Origin: a virus
IMG/VR virus record: IMGVR_UViG_3300025131_000356
Coordinates: 1 to 26,427 of that record
Length of the DNA: 26,427 nucleotides
Direction: 5' to 3' (one strand)
This document shows positions 4,477 to 26,427 of the stretch, piece by piece (the stretch's first letter is position 1; each line of letters begins with the position of its first letter). Under the pieces are notes generated by a model. The model did not search any database. It was given only the letters and a program-made list of their open reading frames with translations, and was not told the DNA's origin. The position numbers and the translations under genes were made by a program.

Positions 4477-5847
4477 ATGGAACATAGATTCACAGCAGAG
4501 CAGCGCGTCCAACGCGCACATGTGGTGATGATGGACACCAAAAAATTGCGGTTTTTTGGGTCGTTATCGTTATACGGGGATATCAATATCGATGTAGATG
4601 TTACTTCTACAGCAGCCACAAATGGAATTGATACTTGGTTCAACCCTGAGTTTGTGCAGACCTTGGACGACAAGGAACTTATGTACGTTGCAATACATGA
4701 GCAAATGCACAAAGCACTCAAGCACTCGGTAGTGTGGCAACATCTTAGGGACATAGATGCATTGCTGACTAATATGGCGTGTGATTACGTCATCAACCTA
4801 AAGCTACAGGATATCGACCCACATGGGGAGTTTATGAGAATGCCGATCTTCAAGGATGGCGATAAAAAAGGTCAGCCCCACGGATTGATTGATGAAGCCT
4901 ATCGGGATATGAACACCCAACAGGTGTTTGACATCTTGTATCAGAAGAATCAGCAATCACCCCCGCCACCCCCGCCACCCCCGCCACCCGGAGGTGAAGG
5001 TGAAGGTGAAGGTGAAGGTGAAGGTGAAGGTGAAGGTGAAGGTGAAGGTGGTGATCCAGTTGATTCCCCAGAGCCACCAAAAGGTCAAAACGGCACTTAT
5101 TCTGAGGAGATCTTAGAAGAAGCAGAGAAGATGCATGATGAGCATAACTACGATGAAGAAGGGAAGTCCGTAGAGGAACTTGAGGAAATTGCTGAAGAAT
5201 TAGACCGTGCAATTCGTCAATCTGTCGAAGTGGCAGGGGATGACGCAGGAGGATTTGCAAGTACGATCAAAAAATTACTAGAGGTCAGCACCCCCTGGGA
5301 AGAATTACTTGCTGATTTTATACATTCAGTATGTAAAGGCAACGATATAACGTCCTATCGTCGGTATAACAAACGTTTGATTGGCTCAGATATTTTGATG
5401 CCACATACGATTGGGGAAAGTATCGGTGGCATTGTAGTAGCTATAGATATGTCAACATCGATTTCACAGGATGCCGTTGATAAATTCTTGTCAGAGGTGA
5501 AGGTCATAGTTGAGGATGTTATGCCGGACAAGGTGCATCTATTGTACTGGGATACCAGAATGGCAGTACATGAGCAATATGATGAATCGAACTACGACGC
5601 ATTGCTCGATCTAACAAAGCCCAGAGGTGGAGGCGGCACTAATCCTGTCTGTGTTGTAGAATATGTAGAGAATAATATTCTACTAGATTCTCATATAGAA
5701 TGTGTGTTATTCTTAACAGATGCTTATGTAGGTGGATTACCGGAAGATATCTGGGGGCAGTTGGAATATCCCATTATGTGGGCGGTCTGTCCTGATGGTT
5801 GTCAGCCTTTTAATCCCCGCGTAGGCCAAGTTATACATCTGGATTAA
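4477..5847 (+). CDS. HExxH metallopeptidase-like / VWA-like protein (DUF2201 type), MoxR partner
   Basis: The 456-aa product has two parts joined by a low-complexity linker. The N-terminal part (1-160) carries HEQMH at 74-78, an HExxH zinc-protease signature followed by a helix with LKH. The linker (162-191) is ten prolines followed by nine Gly-Glu pairs, then an acidic coiled region (about 205-250). The C-terminal part (about 315-456) is VWA-like with a MIDAS-type DMSTS (324-328), T388 in GGGGTNP and D415 in LFLTD. This architecture fits the DUF2201 family, which is encoded beside MoxR ATPases. The likely model is that the ATPase acts on or through this protein; whether it is a working protease is not shown by sequence alone. 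A strong AGGAGAAGG precedes the ATG. Confidence 0.85.
   Translation: MEHRFTAEQRVQRAHVVMMDTKKLRFFGSLSLYGDINIDVDVTSTAATNGIDTWFNPEFVQTLDDKELMYVAIHEQMHKALKHSVVWQHLRDIDALLTNMACDYVINLKLQDIDPHGEFMRMPIFKDGDKKGQPHGLIDEAYRDMNTQQVFDILYQKNQQSPPPPPPPPPPGGEGEGEGEGEGEGEGEGEGGDPVDSPEPPKGQNGTYSEEILEEAEKMHDEHNYDEEGKSVEELEEIAEELDRAIRQSVEVAGDDAGGFASTIKKLLEVSTPWEELLADFIHSVCKGNDITSYRRYNKRLIGSDILMPHTIGESIGGIVVAIDMSTSISQDAVDKFLSEVKVIVEDVMPDKVHLLYWDTRMAVHEQYDESNYDALLDLTKPRGGGGTNPVCVVEYVENNILLDSHIECVLFLTDAYVGGLPEDIWGQLEYPIMWAVCPDGCQPFNPRVGQVIHLD
4960..5046 (+). repeat. In-frame microsatellite: (CCCCCGCCA)3 then (GGTGAA)9
   Basis: The linker of the VWA-like gene is made of two DNA repeats: 9-bp units encoding ten prolines (4960-4989) and nine perfect GGTGAA hexamers encoding Gly-Glu (4993-5046). 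All units are multiples of three, so slippage would change linker length without breaking the frame. The hexamer copies are identical at DNA level, which suggests recent expansion or ongoing slippage. Confidence 0.95.
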
Positions 5848-8710: not shown

Positions 8711-8737
8711 AACCCCCCTACTCAGGGGGGTTTTTTT
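8711..8737 (+). terminator. Rho-independent terminator
   Basis: AACCCCCC (8711-8718) pairs with GGGGGGTT (8725-8732) around TACTCA, and seven Ts follow at 8731-8737. It closes the first long operon (709-8554) and insulates it from the promoter at 8751. Confidence 0.92.
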
Positions 8738-8750
8738 CGCCTAAAAAATG

Positions 8751-8779
8751 TTGTAACACTGTACACAGTATAGTAGAAT
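8751..8779 (+). promoter_or_regulatory. Promoter with operator-like dyad for the 8837 operon
   Basis: TTGTAA (8751-8756) and TAGAAT (8774-8779) are separated by 17 bp. The spacer holds the dyad ACTGT-AC-ACAGT (8758-8769). The arrangement mirrors the 630 and 17118 promoters, which also carry short inverted repeats in or near the spacer, although arm sequences differ. Confidence 0.65.
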
Positions 8780-8836: not shown

Positions 8837-9481
8837 ATGGCAATTATCACACTAAGAGAGATAAAGGTGGACGACGTAGAACTACGAATAGTAGGTACGA
8901 GTCCTGTCGTCCAACACAAGTGGATCGAGAAAATGAAGAAACAGATCCGCGATAAGAAATTGGGCGTGAAGACCAAGAACCGGGAAAAGTGTGACCCGAA
9001 TCAAGAGTATCTTGATGCTACATATGTCGGGGCAGAAACCGGCAAACATGGAGTTCCGTGCGATGCTATCAAAAAATGCATGGTGAATGCCGCGCATAAG
9101 GATATCGGGATCGAAAAAACCTTGGTTCGCAAGGCTATCTTTGTCGTACCACAAGATCGGGACAACACGGATAATAGGGACTTGGTTCTGTTTGATAAGG
9201 CCGATGATCCTATTATGCGTGAGGATATTGTACGTGTTGGATCAGGGTCTGCTGATTTACGGTATCGCCCTGAGTTTAGGAACTGGTCGATCATATTCAC
9301 TGTTCAAGTAAACACAGATGATGTTCCAGTTGAGAGTTTAATGAATCTCCTCAATCGAGCGGGGTTCGGTGTGGGGCTTCAGGAAATGCGTCCCGAGAAA
9401 GGCGGGGATTATGGACGATTCCAGATCGACAAGGATTATGTTGCTACAACTACAGTCAGCCAAATAAGAGGGGTCGCGTAA
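8837..9481 (+). CDS. Conserved phage protein of unknown function, 214 aa
   Basis: Hallmarks are VGTSPVVQHKW near the N-terminus (about 19-29), a central MREDIVRVGSGSADLRYRPEF region (about 128-148) and RAGFGVGLQEMRPEKGGDYGRF near the C-terminus. I recognise this combination from uncharacterised phage proteins, often encoded near replication or recombination genes. The alternating beta pattern with a Gly-rich C-terminal loop suggests a nucleic-acid-binding fold, but that is inference. ATG 8837 follows AAGAGGAAAA. It is the first gene after the 8751 promoter and is followed after 1 nt by the gene at 9483. Confidence 0.7.
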   Translation: MAIITLREIKVDDVELRIVGTSPVVQHKWIEKMKKQIRDKKLGVKTKNREKCDPNQEYLDATYVGAETGKHGVPCDAIKKCMVNAAHKDIGIEKTLVRKAIFVVPQDRDNTDNRDLVLFDKADDPIMREDIVRVGSGSADLRYRPEFRNWSIIFTVQVNTDDVPVESLMNLLNRAGFGVGLQEMRPEKGGDYGRFQIDKDYVATTTVSQIRGVA

Positions 9482-9482
9482 T

Positions 9483-10040
9483 ATGGATGTAGAAAGAACG
9501 GTTCATATAGTGTGTTCTTCAGATGATACTGCTGTAGCACCAACAAAAGCTCGGTTAGCTTTAACGTGGGCGAAAGGTTCACGTTTTGGGAAGGCCGATG
9601 CCGAGGCATGTTACAACGAGATCGTTGAGGTCGCTGATGCTTTCGGGGGGACTCCCCCCGAGGGCGCTCTCATGGAGAAAGCAAGAGATAAGAGTTCAGC
9701 ACTACATGGTCTTTTTGATTGGGATCAGGAAGTAGCCGCAAAAAAATGGTGGGCGCATACTGAAAGGCTAATCAAAGCACAGATTGTCTATGTTAAAAAA
9801 GGTACAAAAGTAAGAGAGCAACATCAGATTCGTGCTTTCACGAACATAAAAGAAACAGATGCAGAAGGTAATAGTATCGGTGTTTATTACGATACGTTTG
9901 ATGTGATCAATGATCCTGAAAAGCGAAAAAAACTATTAACCCGCGCAATGCGAGACATGGAGACATTTAAAAAGCGATATGGGTTGCTTGAAGAATTGTC
10001 TTCTGTAATTGATCCTATCGAGGCTTTTCTGAATAAGTAG
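9483..10040 (+). CDS. Conserved phage protein of unknown function, 185 aa
   Basis: The segment SALHGLFDWDQEVAAKKWWAHTERLI (read here as a region around residues 72-97) matches a recurrent phage/prophage protein type with an LHxxFxWD motif followed by an amphipathic helix. A beta-rich stretch (RAFTNI, YYDTFDVI) and a helical C-terminus follow. Function is unknown. It begins 1 nt after the previous stop and its own stop is close to the start of the pentamer array, so the two-gene operon ends there. No clear terminator hairpin is visible before the array. Confidence 0.7.
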   Translation: MDVERTVHIVCSSDDTAVAPTKARLALTWAKGSRFGKADAEACYNEIVEVADAFGGTPPEGALMEKARDKSSALHGLFDWDQEVAAKKWWAHTERLIKAQIVYVKKGTKVREQHQIRAFTNIKETDAEGNSIGVYYDTFDVINDPEKRKKLLTRAMRDMETFKKRYGLLEELSSVIDPIEAFLNK

Positions 10041-10052
10041 TTCTCTAGTTAT

Positions 10053-10510
10053 AGGGTTTGGTTTGGCAGTTCCGTTCCGCTTTGTTATGGTGCGGCTCGT
10101 TGTGGCATGTTTTGGCAGTCGGGTTCTGTTGGGCTAAGTTAGGTTACGTTAGGTTCTGTTCTGGCAGTTACGTTCCGTTTGATTCAGTTCAGTTGTGTTC
10201 TGTTTTGTTCCGTTACGTTGGATTAAGTTTCGTTCTGGCAGTTAGGTTAGGTTCCGTTCTGTTCCGGCTTGTTAGGTTAAATTGGGTTCTGGCAGTTGGG
10301 TTGGGTTGAGCTGGATTGTGTTGGGTTAAATTGGGTTCTGGCAGTTGGGTTCCGTTCAATTTTGGCCTGTTAAGTTCTGTTGGGTTCGGTTTTGTTCTGG
10401 CAGTTAGGTTGTGGTTTAATGCGTTTAGCTACGTTCCGTTTGGTTACGTTCAGTTTAGTTTTGGCAGTTGGGTTCCGTCACGTTTCGTTTGGTTTGGTTA
10501 AGTTTTGACA
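10053..10510 (+). repeat. Phase-locked GTTNN pentamer array broken by GGCA tetramers
   Basis: From 10069 to 10506 the top strand parses without remainder into 82 pentamers and 7 GGCA tetramers (410 + 28 = 438 nt). Sixty-three pentamers begin GTT; most of the rest are GCTNN, ATTNN or GGNNN. GGCA starts at 10065, 10114, 10163, 10237, 10291, 10340, 10399 and 10463, so blocks hold 9, 9, 14, 10, 9, 11, 12 and then 8 pentamers. The pentamer just before each of these interruptions is always GTTTT or GTTCT. After the last block the phase continues into GACA (10507-10510), which completes the -35 box TTGACA. Two overlapping ORFs in this region give Val/Leu/Gly/Phe-rich repeats with no ribosome binding site and are best read as shadows. 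Function unknown. Confidence 0.95.
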
Positions 10511-21600: not shown

Positions 21601-24600
21601 TCAACTTAGTTCTATCCCTACGTCTTCTAATATAGGATCTCGTAGTTTCTTATTTATGTATAGCCCATTAATATATTCTTCACTACGTTTAAGTTTTGCT
21701 TTGAAGCTTTTTATTTCGCTAGAAGCGTTTATAGGCATGAAGCGTCCAAAGCGGCTGTTATTAAATTTAGCTATTTCTTTCCGCACCTTTCCTTCTTCTT
21801 TATAGTCTCCGGTTACTTTAGCGCCAAACAGTTTATTTAATAAACCGTCACGACGTTCCAATACTGCTCTTTGGTATTGTTTTGCAGATGAATTTGCTCT
21901 ATATCGCGCAGTTACTTCTTTAGGTCTTAGACCAAACATATTCGCTACTATAGACCCCACAGGCACTGGGGCCATTATAGGAGTCATACCATCCCGAGTT
22001 AGTACGCCATCGTCACCAAGAGCACTATACCTAAGTGATTCTATAGGGTTGCTCACGAAGGATGGGGTGATTTTTTCGAACGCCCGTATAACTTTCCCTT
22101 CAGAAAACAGCTCCATACCATCATATATACTCCCTGCAATCCCTGCTGCTGGCCCCGCAAAAGCTACTGGGTAATACAACCACTCTAACTGTTCTCGTTT
22201 ATAGGGGTTATCATAAGGAAATAACATATTCCCAAAACCTGTCCGACTTGCTAGATCAGTTCCCAATACCGCATTGAATAATCCAAAAAAGGCAAAATCC
22301 CCCATTTTAGCGTTAAGGGAAGTATCAAACTCCCACGGTTCGTCCTCATCTCCCAATAAGAAGTCACTCATCGCCATACTTACAACTGCATCCACTGCGC
22401 CATAAAAAGGTAAACCTTTCATACCCGCTAGTGTATAAGCCGGTATCATGATCGCCGCAATTTGTTTAAACGCGATACCTCGTTCTTTAGGATCTACGTG
22501 GGACACGGCATCTCTTGCTAGGCGGTATTGCAGATAAACTTGTGAAAAAGCAAATCGTTTAAAAGTACCCATTACTTTCCCAACACCATCTTGGAAATGT
22601 GTAGGCCCAGTTTCTGCAATCGCAGCGCCGTTTATGGTGTCTACAAAATCAACTGCAAAGTTAATAGCCGATTTTTTATCTGTAGCTCCCTTTTCGGCCC
22701 CGTACTCACTACTCCCCGCTCTTATTTCTGCCGTTCCTTTTTTTCTAGCTAAATCGTAAGCCGCAATCAAAGCAATTTCCCGGTTGGCCCGCTCAGTATT
22801 TTGGAAATACCAACTTAATGCATAAGTGTATTTGTGAACCCGCTGAGAAAGCTTTCCGGTTCGGCCTTTTTGCATATCGATTAATTCTTGACCTGTAGTC
22901 CTTCGGACAGCGCCGCGAGCGAGTCCAGCGTCGTACAACGCTCTATACTCAGGGGATAAATTTTTATTCGCCCCAAAAGTTTTATCTGCAAGCGATGTAT
23001 CAAAACCAGCTAGGAAACCAAGTGCTTTCGGTATTTTAAATTTAGTATTGTTATCCCGTCCCCCGTTCACGTACATTTTCGTTGCGTTCATAAAAGCTTT
23101 ATGGGTATCTACCAAACCATATCGCCCAACCATATAAAAATACCCAATCGCTACCTGTGATAAGTTTACAAATGCAGAAGATAGGTTGCCCAGGATGTAC
23201 CACACATAGCTTCCCCATGAAAGCGTTGCAGCCCATGACTTAGGTTGCGGGTTTTCTAAAAACTCCCTTCTATCTTTTACGCTTTGTATAATTTGGGCAA
23301 CGTTAGATTCAGCTTTAGTTGCCCCCGAATCATCGTCGCTCCTTATGTAGCCTTCGGGTTCGGCAGATGTTCTTTGAATTTCGTCAAGGGCCGCATAAGC
23401 ATCACGTAGTTCTTTTGATTGCTGCATTGAAGCTAGCTGATTTGCCATCTGATGGCCTATCTGCGCAAAATTACGTACTGAATCTTTTCTAAACCCCGCT
23501 ATCTTTTTACGTTTTTTAAACTGTTTCTTTAGAGAAGAATCAGGAAACATATTAAGATAGTTATCGACTATTAATTTTTTAGTTGAGGCCGGTAAATTCG
23601 CATCCCCAGTTAGTGCGCTCAAAAGTTTTTCTATATCTGGATTAGGTACTTCACTACTTATTGAAGCATCGTTGGGACGGGCGTAAGTAAGTATGCTGTC
23701 TTTGATTACATCAGGATCTTTTTCGAGTATTTGTTTCGCAGCAAGCCGTTGTTCGGGGGATTCATACGATAGAGTTACACGTTTGACAAAGGCTGCTCCG
23801 GTGTCGTCCATAATGAGCGCACCAGACGCATCCCTTAGATTGGTTACTCTAAAGTCTAGCCAATAATTTCCGTTATGCCTAAGTAGCGGGAAATATGGAG
23901 TTATCTGTCCCTTTAAGAGATTAAGCATATTTTTATGCGCGTCAGCTATACCTGCATCGTCTAGGAACTTTTCTAAAGTTGCTATATATTCTGTGGCAAA
24001 ATTTTCATATTTATTTGCTAGCCGAATATAGACCTCTTGCAGAGGGGCAGGTAATTTTTCAAACTGTGCATATAAATCAGTACCACGAACTACTCTGTTT
24101 GGATCGGTTCGGTCTGTATTGTTTCGTAGGTCTATTTCGTCAATAGTTGAGTCGTGAACAATATCCTCGAAAGCCTCTCTGTAAGGTTTGTACTCTTCAC
24201 TATTTAGTACTGTATCTAGGTAGAGGGAGAAATCTTCTACTTCCCTACGTTTATCATCTATTATCTGTTTCCGCGTGTTAACAATAGTTTCAATTTTGCG
24301 TATAACTCCCGCAAGCTCCGGGTATTTCTTAGACACCTGATTAGCAAGTTGAAGTAACCCCATAAAGTTATAGACCTGTTTTTTATAGTTTGTAGCCCTT
24401 TCTAACGTTGTTTTTCCTAGCCCTTTTAGACCTATATCATTAATTGCGGCAAAAAAATCACGATCTTGTGTGTTTACATTGACTCTAGATTGGGTCTCTA
24501 CATATTCATTACCCGCAGTAGTAGCGATAGAATATAGTAATTGCTTATCTATATTACTTAGCATAGCCGTTGGGTTACGGACTACTAAGCCAGCAGCCCC

Positions 24601-26427
24601 ATACGCCATGTCTACCACTTCTTGTGCCGTTGGGTTGTTGTAGGGGTACTGAAAAAGCTTACGCCACGCCGCCTTAAAAGCTGCCATTATTGACCTAAAG
24701 AAATTCCCTACCGGAGATTTCTCTTTCCTAACTTCTACAGGATCAACTCCCGCATCGACGGCTTCTTCAATAAAGTAAGCTAGTAGTTCATCATTAGGTA
24801 ATACGCTTTTATCTAATACATCTTCTGCTAATTTAAGCCTGTCCATAGCTCGTTTAGCAAGACGACTTTCAAAACTTCCGTCTGTTTTACTAGCAAACCG
24901 TTTAATGGTATTGATTAATCGATTGTAGCTACCTTTTCCCACATAAGCTTTCATCCCCACATGGGAGCCTACTTCATGCAGAAACACACCTAATTCATTA
25001 CCTGCTTCTATGTTATCGGTGAATAGGTATACCCGTTTATCTAAAATAACGCCTTTTGCAGTAGGTTCTAATTGAGTTAGGCCAAGTTCTTGAGGGTTTC
25101 TGGCAATCGTAACAGTATCGTTAATATCCCGCCCCATTCGCGTGGACAGTATGGCACTCATTACTTCAGGGCTTGTTGGTGTAGTTACCGTTTCGGGAGC
25201 AATTGAATAGGCAACTTTCGCCGGTAGCATCGCCTCGGCTATTTTAATGACTTCGTTATAAAAATCTTCTGCGGCTCCAGATAGTGCTTTTAAAGCTTTA
25301 CCCGTTAAGCGGGTATCTCCGCCCGATCTCGTGCCTCCTACGACGAATGCTCGGTTAGCAAGACCAGCAAGACCAGGATCAAATGTACGGTAAACATATT
25401 CTTTAAAATTCTGTTGTAGCACTTCTTCCGTGAGAGCGGGTTTATCGCCTTCGCGTTTTATATCTTGGGCCGCTGCCTCTTCCGCAGCATCTATAGCGTC
25501 ATCTTCTACGGATGTACCTATTCCCTCGTCTAATCTGTCTGCCGATAGCTCGTTTGAACCAACAATGGAAGCATCCGCCTCTAATCCCTTATCTACGTCA
25601 GTTTTTGCGGCGGCAGTTGCTGCTTCTCTGCTCTTCTGGACCCTCTCAATAAAACGCTTAAACACGAGACCGTTTGTAATTTCTTCGATTTTTTGATCAT
25701 CGTATATAGCATCTTGGGTATCAGCAGCAACTCTCTTATCCGCTAACCGTGCTGCCTCTCCTACGGCAGATGCACGATCTGCTAGTTGTTTTACCCTCTT
25801 CTTTTTCTTGTCCCAAAGCTTTACAAGCTGTGTTCCTGTAAATTTCTTATTTGCCCCCTCGGGTGTTGTGTTCTTTAAATCTTCCAAGGTAAGTGGGTTA
25901 TCACCGCCTGTTACTTGGTCGTATGCAGATTGCTTACCATCTTTACGTAGTCTAAGCGCAGCAGGATGCAATAAATCTTTGAATGCTTGGACCTCAGAAC
26001 CAGCTTCAGTTTCTAGGTCTTTAGCTTTTTCAGCTAATAAATCGTTAATTTCACCCCCAAAATTTGCAAGTAATTGTCTGTCGTCGATGCTTAAAGTAGC
26101 TAAAAAATCGTCATAAGTTTCCAATTCATTATCAGGATCTTGTGCGGCAAGTATTCTATCTACAAAGGGTGCTACATTAGCTTTATCCTTGTAATAGGGT
26201 ATTGTTGGATCTCCTCCTGTTGGTACTTCTTCAGTATCACCACTGCCAGCAACTTGGGTAGGAGGTTGGCCTTTGTCTAACCTTGCTTGGACTTCTGCAT
26301 CTATACGCTCTTGTACTCGCCTATTAAATCTATCACCTGCCTCATCGCCATAATTTCGACGGATCGTGCTTTCCATATCTTCAGCATCATGACCAAATTT
26401 AACTGTGTCAGCACGACGGTCAATCTC
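21601..26427 (-). CDS. Giant phage polyvalent-type protein with HExxxH motif (partial, 5' end outside window)
   Basis: The frame stays open to the right edge: 17 codons lie upstream of the internal ATG at 26376, so at least 1608 residues are present and the true start is outside. From that ATG, HEVGSH is at 467-472, within a metallopeptidase-like LHEVGSHVGMKAYVG context seen in large phage polyvalent proteins. The N-terminal region (to about 330) is acidic, Ala-rich and coiled. The C-terminal half (about 1080-1480) has amphipathic helices and motifs such as KVMGTFKRFAFSQVYLQYR and NTERANREIALIAAYDLARKKG, which I associate with the C-terminal domains of virion-injected polyvalent proteins. It is probably packaged and ejected with DNA (inference). 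It opens the opposite-strand, likely virion, region. Confidence 0.75.
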   Translation of the reverse strand, partial: EIDRRADTVKFGHDAEDMESTIRRNYGDEAGDRFNRRVQERIDAEVQARLDKGQPPTQVAGSGDTEEVPTGGDPTIPYYKDKANVAPFVDRILAAQDPDNELETYDDFLATLSIDDRQLLANFGGEINDLLAEKAKDLETEAGSEVQAFKDLLHPAALRLRKDGKQSAYDQVTGGDNPLTLEDLKNTTPEGANKKFTGTQLVKLWDKKKKRVKQLADRASAVGEAARLADKRVAADTQDAIYDDQKIEEITNGLVFKRFIERVQKSREAATAAAKTDVDKGLEADASIVGSNELSADRLDEGIGTSVEDDAIDAAEEAAAQDIKREGDKPALTEEVLQQNFKEYVYRTFDPGLAGLANRAFVVGGTRSGGDTRLTGKALKALSGAAEDFYNEVIKIAEAMLPAKVAYSIAPETVTTPTSPEVMSAILSTRMGRDINDTVTIARNPQELGLTQLEPTAKGVILDKRVYLFTDNIEAGNELGVFLHEVGSHVGMKAYVGKGSYNRLINTIKRFASKTDGSFESRLAKRAMDRLKLAEDVLDKSVLPNDELLAYFIEEAVDAGVDPVEVRKEKSPVGNFFRSIMAAFKAAWRKLFQYPYNNPTAQEVVDMAYGAAGLVVRNPTAMLSNIDKQLLYSIATTAGNEYVETQSRVNVNTQDRDFFAAINDIGLKGLGKTTLERATNYKKQVYNFMGLLQLANQVSKKYPELAGVIRKIETIVNTRKQIIDDKRREVEDFSLYLDTVLNSEEYKPYREAFEDIVHDSTIDEIDLRNNTDRTDPNRVVRGTDLYAQFEKLPAPLQEVYIRLANKYENFATEYIATLEKFLDDAGIADAHKNMLNLLKGQITPYFPLLRHNGNYWLDFRVTNLRDASGALIMDDTGAAFVKRVTLSYESPEQRLAAKQILEKDPDVIKDSILTYARPNDASISSEVPNPDIEKLLSALTGDANLPASTKKLIVDNYLNMFPDSSLKKQFKKRKKIAGFRKDSVRNFAQIGHQMANQLASMQQSKELRDAYAALDEIQRTSAEPEGYIRSDDDSGATKAESNVAQIIQSVKDRREFLENPQPKSWAATLSWGSYVWYILGNLSSAFVNLSQVAIGYFYMVGRYGLVDTHKAFMNATKMYVNGGRDNNTKFKIPKALGFLAGFDTSLADKTFGANKNLSPEYRALYDAGLARGAVRRTTGQELIDMQKGRTGKLSQRVHKYTYALSWYFQNTERANREIALIAAYDLARKKGTAEIRAGSSEYGAEKGATDKKSAINFAVDFVDTINGAAIAETGPTHFQDGVGKVMGTFKRFAFSQVYLQYRLARDAVSHVDPKERGIAFKQIAAIMIPAYTLAGMKGLPFYGAVDAVVSMAMSDFLLGDEDEPWEFDTSLNAKMGDFAFFGLFNAVLGTDLASRTGFGNMLFPYDNPYKREQLEWLYYPVAFAGPAAGIAGSIYDGMELFSEGKVIRAFEKITPSFVSNPIESLRYSALGDDGVLTRDGMTPIMAPVPVGSIVANMFGLRPKEVTARYRANSSAKQYQRAVLERRDGLLNKLFGAKVTGDYKEEGKVRKEIAKFNNSRFGRFMPINASSEIKSFKAKLKRSEEYINGLYINKKLRDPILEDVGIELS

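Follow-up and report, generated by a model that had tools for sequence, protein, structure and literature searches.

The tract at positions 10055–10510 of the window (the whole 26,427-nt stretch of viral DNA that we analysed) is very probably the vrRNA array of a VIPR locus, with about eight guides. The observations behind this reading are the array itself, the RAMP fold and Vipr homology of a protein encoded upstream, the linkage between array and protein, the shuffling of modules between relatives and the conservation of their NN letters. VIPR (Viral Interference Programmable Repeat) was made public in a 2026 preprint (PMC13142463) and put forward as possibly ancestral to CRISPR effectors; the preprint describes it as a RAMP protein, a vap gene and tandem GGY/NN pentamer RNAs in phages. 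Its vrRNAs consist of 9–16 GGY/NN pentamers, with one base skipped per NN, and in the SUSP1 system target binding silences the gene (PMC13142463). The preprint also allows "a related consensus" to GGY and mentions staggered arrays. Because VIPR had been described in 2026 in these terms, we class the locus within it: it is best explained as a member of an already described kind, from which its GTT consensus and its tail-less GGCA punctuation set it apart. The original prediction had known of no named feature with this grammar, and the preprint supplies one.

A phased pentamer array punctuated by GGCA

Our recount of positions 10069–10506 (438 nt) reproduced the originally noted tiling: 82 pentamers, of which 63 start with GTT, together with seven GGCA tetramers account for every base. 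The other triplets are ATT (6), GCT (4), GGC (4), GGT (2), GTC (2) and AAT (1). Entropy at pentamer positions 1–5 is 0.42, 0.75, 0.38, 1.99 and 1.96 bits; positions 1–3 are nearly fixed and positions 4–5 (NN) nearly free. The tract is thus made of tandem noncoding pentamers with a constant triplet and a hypervariable NN, GTT being a variant consensus. All seven GGCA spacings in the original list (49, 49, 74, 54, 49, 59 and 64) are correct, while the list skipped a further GGCA at 10104, which keeps the phase as part of a pentamer, GGCAT. The array also starts earlier than first described, at 10055, with GGTTT GGTTT GGCA (Table 1). Its modules hold 9, 9, 14, 10, 9, 11, 12 and 8 pentamers, matching the 9–16 repeats of vrRNAs except for the last, which falls one short.

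GTT recurs at a lag of five bases 41 times in the tract; in 2000 dinucleotide-preserving shuffles the mean count was 2.8 and the highest 9. The pattern GTTNN ×5 with up to 3 mismatches occurs 54 times in the window, where 1.0 match is expected. A scrambled-sequence simulation had been named as a possible refutation of the phase; 0/2000 shuffles approached it. The original view that the phase implies selection is upheld. The claim that the tract lacks coding capacity also stands: a coding reading (ORFs of 83 and 61 aa) was dropped because a 5-nt phase with free NN differs from codon phase. The tract is GT-rich, with A and C scarce. Folding of the array RNA was unremarkable relative to shuffles (z = -1.0), an Rfam search gave no match, and a tRNA search found none.

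The pentamer preceding GGCA in the window is GTTCT or GTTTT in 7/7 cases (p = 7e-6), exactly as first noticed. At locus L194, the NN ahead of GGCA is AC or TT in 9/9 cases, and at L141 18/18 modules begin with GTT despite an interior triplet GGT. Because the preceding NN is restricted and the L141 modules all begin with GTT, GGCA(GTT) together with the preceding NN looks like a boundary or processing element. The array ends in GTTTT-GACA (10502–10510), and the TTGACA at 10505–10510 had been taken for the -35 box of the next promoter. The hexamer is present, yet no -10 hexamer was found 16–18 nt from it; with no such partner, GACA would be better and more simply read as a degenerate or decayed GGCA after GTTTT.

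A conserved structured 3′ tail such as that of the SUSP1 vrRNAs was not found in the array, only GGCA between abutting modules. This excludes a SUSP1-type layout, not VIPR, because the preprint describes other architectures (PMC13142463). Variations on the layout occur elsewhere. At L027:967-1931, several GTTNN arrays have repeated tRNA-like fragments (CAGGAATCGAACCTGC...AACCATTGGCTCGC) between them, perhaps tRNA-like processing sites between vrRNAs. Loci L015, L054, L072 and L101 carry GTTNN arrays without GGCA, with Vipr homologues in L072 and L101.

Table 1 Features of the proposed VIPR locus in the window
Feature	Positions	Strand	Basis
Intrinsic terminator-like hairpin upstream of vipr	8711..8732	+	Consensus match only
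Sigma70-like promoter candidate for vipr-vap-array, weak (9/12)	8751..8779	+	Consensus match only
vipr, RAMP (Cas7/Csm3-like), 214 aa, phrog_4652	8837..9481	+	Fold model, family HMM, hhalign
Candidate vap, 185 aa, phrog_15946	9483..10040	+	Right behind vipr stop codon
Array start, GGTTT GGTTT and first GGCA (10065-10068)	10055..10068	+	Same opening in L183, L184, L185
Guide module 1, 9 pentamers	10069..10113	+	Tiling
GGCA punctuation	10114..10117	+	Tiling
Guide module 2, 9 pentamers, NN = GG CT GG AA AG AC AG CT	10118..10162	+	Tiling
GGCA punctuation	10163..10166	+	Tiling
Guide module 3, 14 pentamers	10167..10236	+	Tiling
GGCA punctuation	10237..10240	+	Tiling
Guide module 4, 10 pentamers	10241..10290	+	Tiling
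GGCA punctuation	10291..10294	+	Tiling
Guide module 5, 9 pentamers	10295..10339	+	Tiling
GGCA punctuation	10340..10343	+	Tiling
Guide module 6, 11 pentamers	10344..10398	+	Tiling
GGCA punctuation	10399..10402	+	Tiling
Guide module 7, 12 pentamers	10403..10462	+	Tiling
GGCA punctuation	10463..10466	+	Tiling
Guide module 8, 8 pentamers	10467..10506	+	Tiling
GACA, putatively degenerate last punctuation (originally a -35 box)	10507..10510	+	Phase; no partner -10

A RAMP protein encoded upstream of the array

The vipr gene lies two ORFs upstream of the array. Its 214-aa product had no match in Pfam, and PHROG 4652 is of unknown function. A likeness to the glycine-rich loop found in RAMP proteins was evident at its C-terminus (GFGVGLQEMRPEKGGDYGRF). 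The AlphaFold2 model of the protein, obtained with 32 sequences, reached a pLDDT of 89. Among the matches listed by Foldseek, all were CRISPR backbone subunits of the Csm3/Cas7 kind (best E = 9e-7), and VIA-align placed the model on Csm3 (5yjd_A) with a Z of 12.6 over 148 residues.

For comparison with SUSP1, we identified its Vipr as the 195-aa ORF at L197:28477-29061, which lies between two pentamer tracts. A family HMM of 29 window-type relatives, from which SUSP1-like sequences had been excluded, found this assigned ORF at E = 2.4e-19, the next ORF having E = 0.23, and hhalign gave 99.7%. Residues G176, G180, R185 and G193 are invariant in alignment A1. The 214-aa protein has the make-up of a minimal RAMP, with an RRM core, G-loop and thumb, and is kin to SUSP1 Vipr.

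Homologues of the 185-aa ORF that follows vipr adjoin vipr and array in many loci. Its AlphaFold2 model was fair (pLDDT 81) and had no solved relative in the PDB; the protein is unrelated to SUSP1 Vap. Judged from its position, it is probably the accessory protein Vap.

Linkage between arrays and Vipr in other phages

A tolerant GTTNN-GGCA search across phages had been suggested at the outset. A stringent search pattern (GTTNN ×3, GTTYT, GGCA, GTTNNGTT) retrieved two viral contigs in which 5n+4 modules adjoin related genes; at L009, homologues of both window neighbour genes lie upstream of the array. A looser pattern retrieved many more loci. A homologue of the 214-aa protein is present in at least 21 of the 52 new loci that were chosen by this DNA pattern alone, and short flanks hide others. 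Chosen by the Vipr protein alone, 14/14 viral loci carry GGCA-punctuated pentamer arrays directly downstream. A GTTNN-only scan of IMG/VR returned, besides true arrays, mostly chance matches or simple repeats.

The consensus triplet differs by clade, being GTT in the window, GGT in L141 and GGC in actinophages. The combination of vipr with GGCNN arrays punctuated by GGCA also occurs in cultured phages of Mycobacterium (Cheoctovirus) and Gordonia. In L200, L202 and L237-L240 (Mycobacterium Cheoctovirus) and in L198 and L199 (Gordonia), the RAMP gene is annotated only as "hypothetical protein". In the Pseudomonas aeruginosa prophage LESphi2 (L201), several separate GGC/NN tracts lie upstream of a gene for a Vipr homologue.

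Conservation of NN and exchange of modules

Comparing NN between related phages had been proposed with the original prediction. In 30 independent homologous module pairs, NN differ less than triplets (21/596 substitutions against 59/894), and 84 non-independent pairs gave rates of 0.044–0.063 for NN and 0.086–0.144 for the triplet. The NN letters are therefore conserved when modules are inherited, though hypervariable across an array, and conservation above the "fixed" triplet is expected if NN is the guide. In our reading, the "freely varying" NN of the original description is the part that carries the information. Modules are also shuffled and exchanged between related phages: L009 and L010 have modules in common at 98–99% identity in a different order, with flanking genes 74–81% identical. 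The window and L183 encode Vipr proteins that are 76% identical, yet have no recognisable module in common.

A coding-likelihood test under a three-periodic coding model compared skips of 0–4 bases. Codon-phase readings (skip 1 or 4) were favoured over skips 0, 2 and 3 by 28–37 nats in the L009 group and by 12–45 nats in the L131 group, and skip 1 was favoured by 6–16 nats in L141. As evidence for the guide reading this preference is supportive only: any uniform NN bias could yield it, and the test is powerless for the window group. In the same test, 34/49 modules of the L009 group and 57/96 of the L131 group read as sense codons.

Searches for targets

Across the viral loci of this analysis (309 modules, skips 0–4), nothing exceeded chance at any skip. 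No target emerged for the guides of the window: exact scans of IMG/VR with modules 2 and 7 gave none. The NN of module 2, taken as the first two letters of codons, decode as G-L-G-[KN]-[RS]-T-[RS]-L, which may resemble a P-loop and is only a lead. Matches of module 3 in IMG/VR and GTDB genomes have the look of chance or, at best, are marginal. They do not extend, except in L235, where 11 NN pairs are exact; this match is marginal and lies outside a likely reading frame. A 16-nt scan with a conserved guide of the L009 family gave 23 matches in ~9 independent families, which is chance level. One of these families (LQFSIWGAVAPPIE, 8 loci) agrees at all nine NN at wobble phase, a result not significant after multiplicity.

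Relatives gave a better result, with the guide AA TT AT TT TT AT GC CC TC of mycobacteriophage Quico, which agrees at 18/18 letters with the tape-measure gene of Che8 and Squirty at skip 1 (predicted target coordinates L241:1432-1461 and, in Squirty, NC_026588 10289-10314). The bases skipped are those at codon position 3, the sole difference between the Squirty and Che8 sites is at a skip base, and the match is antisense to its target gene. The Quico genome itself has no match to the guide within 3 mismatches. In ~0.97 Mb of phage sequence, 0/2500 order-shuffled guides reached 18. Of 18 actinophage guides examined, only this one gave a target, and at skip 2 it also has a 17/18 match that is unexplained.

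Proposed function and alternatives

With two letters read out of each five, the array would probably enable the virus to detect rival viruses and repress them; transcription, loading, the skip rule and silencing would follow the pattern suggested by the relatives and by the preprint (PMC13142463). The Cas7-like Vipr would polymerise along the transcript with one subunit per pentamer, as Cas7 does on crRNA, gripping the near-constant GTT and withholding it from pairing. The exposed NN pairs would jointly specify a DNA target in an xNN reading, in which each step skips one base. Each GGCA-bounded block of 8–14 pentamers would be a separate guide, the last pentamer (NN = YT) and GGCA belonging to the boundary. 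Such complexes may attach to the double-stranded DNA of competing phages or satellites, and the most likely outcome would be silencing of the target gene, with the 185-aa neighbour probably as accessory protein. In our judgement, cooperative binding of the constant triplets by a protein is probable, as the original prediction held. A more tentative possibility is that the GGCA-punctuated, tail-less array represents a distinct guide architecture: a continuous Vipr filament would load one long transcript, GGCA would reset the 5-nt register and mark guide starts or cuts, and the modules would be mobile guide cassettes that phages trade, forming an exchangeable record of rivals with no CRISPR-type acquisition machinery.

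The half-turn binding array and the transcription-control tract put forward originally would make the locus a set of cooperative DNA sites for a phage DNA-binding protein. We regard this as very unlikely. A 5-base step comes close to half a helical turn, the 185-aa neighbour could bind DNA and a TTGACA hexamer closes the tract; however, such spacing would put contacts on alternate faces of the helix, no promoter was found with the hexamer, and the linked protein is a RAMP with the Cas7 fold, which binds RNA. Constant DNA sites would, moreover, predict the opposite of the observed conservation of NN above the triplet, and the evidence points to a guide RNA on a Cas7-like filament. That same constraint on NN within homologous modules weighs against the sequence-diversifying element of the original prediction, in which diversification or cassette exchange would itself be the role and no guide function would exist. 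The exchange of modules between related phages and the lack of recognisable shared modules between the window and L183 speak for it, but one array has a match in a rival phage whose skips are wobble-aligned, and no reverse transcriptase was recognised among the scanned window ORFs, so we give it very little credence.

Within the guide reading, it is rather improbable that the vrRNAs act as antisense on mRNA instead of DNA. Type III Cas7/Csm3 relatives bind RNA targets and the Quico match has antisense orientation, but most modules of the L009 and L131 groups read as sense codons, which are unable to pair with mRNA, and the preprint shows double-stranded DNA binding and repression from either strand (PMC13142463). 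Simple repeat slippage or an artefact of base composition, with no function at all, is suggested by the skewed GT content and is hardly credible: no composition-matched shuffle approached the phase, the near-maximal NN entropy is incompatible with slippage, and the same architecture stands beside Vipr in unrelated phages.

Comparison with known systems

The VIPR of Escherichia phage SUSP1 (type II VIPR) is alike in its homologous RAMP, its phage-borne setting with a second small gene adjoining, and its noncoding pentamer tracts of three constant and two free bases. It differs in its GGY/NN consensus, in its unrelated Vap and in its separate ~100-nt vrRNAs, each with a structured 3′ tail, whereas the window has GTT/NN and eight guides head to tail, punctuated by GGCA, with no tail seen. 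The Gordonia and Mycobacterium (Cheoctovirus) arrays, such as those of Donkeykong, Quico and UmaThurman, share GGCA and the 5n+4 phase with the window, and their Vipr is 33–37% identical; they differ in their GGC/NN consensus and, in Mycobacterium phages, in having the array upstream of vipr. The Class 1 CRISPR-Cas backbone (Csm3/Cas7) has the RAMP fold and a periodic interruption of guide-target pairing in common with the locus, but its step is 6 nt rather than 5 nt, and the window guides sit in a fixed pentamer scaffold. A tandem-repeat scan of the 26-kb window revealed no CRISPR repeat array with unique spacers, and Pfam and PHROGs scans of the main window ORFs named no Cas proteins. In the TRAP-bound trp leader RNA, triplet-plus-two-nucleotide RNA repeats are held by a protein oligomer; TRAP is a ring-shaped regulator of GAG/UAG triplets without targeting. 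A TRAP-like ring regulator, suggested by the 3+2 spacing, was dropped because a RAMP partner was found, and no TRAP homologue was recognised in the window.

The locus and its relatives represent a multi-guide, GGCA-punctuated form, with GTT/NN in environmental phages and GGC/NN in cultured phages of Mycobacterium smegmatis and Gordonia, whose records say only hypothetical protein. With named guide-target pairs, such as Quico against Che8 and Squirty, the noncontiguous code can be put to the test in cultured phages, and the trading of modules between phages suggests how guides might be gained without Cas1.

Other features of the window

Three further features lie away from the locus. The contig end (positions 1–93) holds 4.7 copies of a 20-nt iteron-like repeat, GGATAAATTCTATCCCCACA. 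Codon repeats at 4958–5050 encode poly-proline and (Gly-Glu)n inside a 456-aa ORF (4477–5847, phrog_1314). On the opposite strand, positions 21601–26376 (-) hold a 1591-aa ORF with an LPD39 large polyvalent protein domain.
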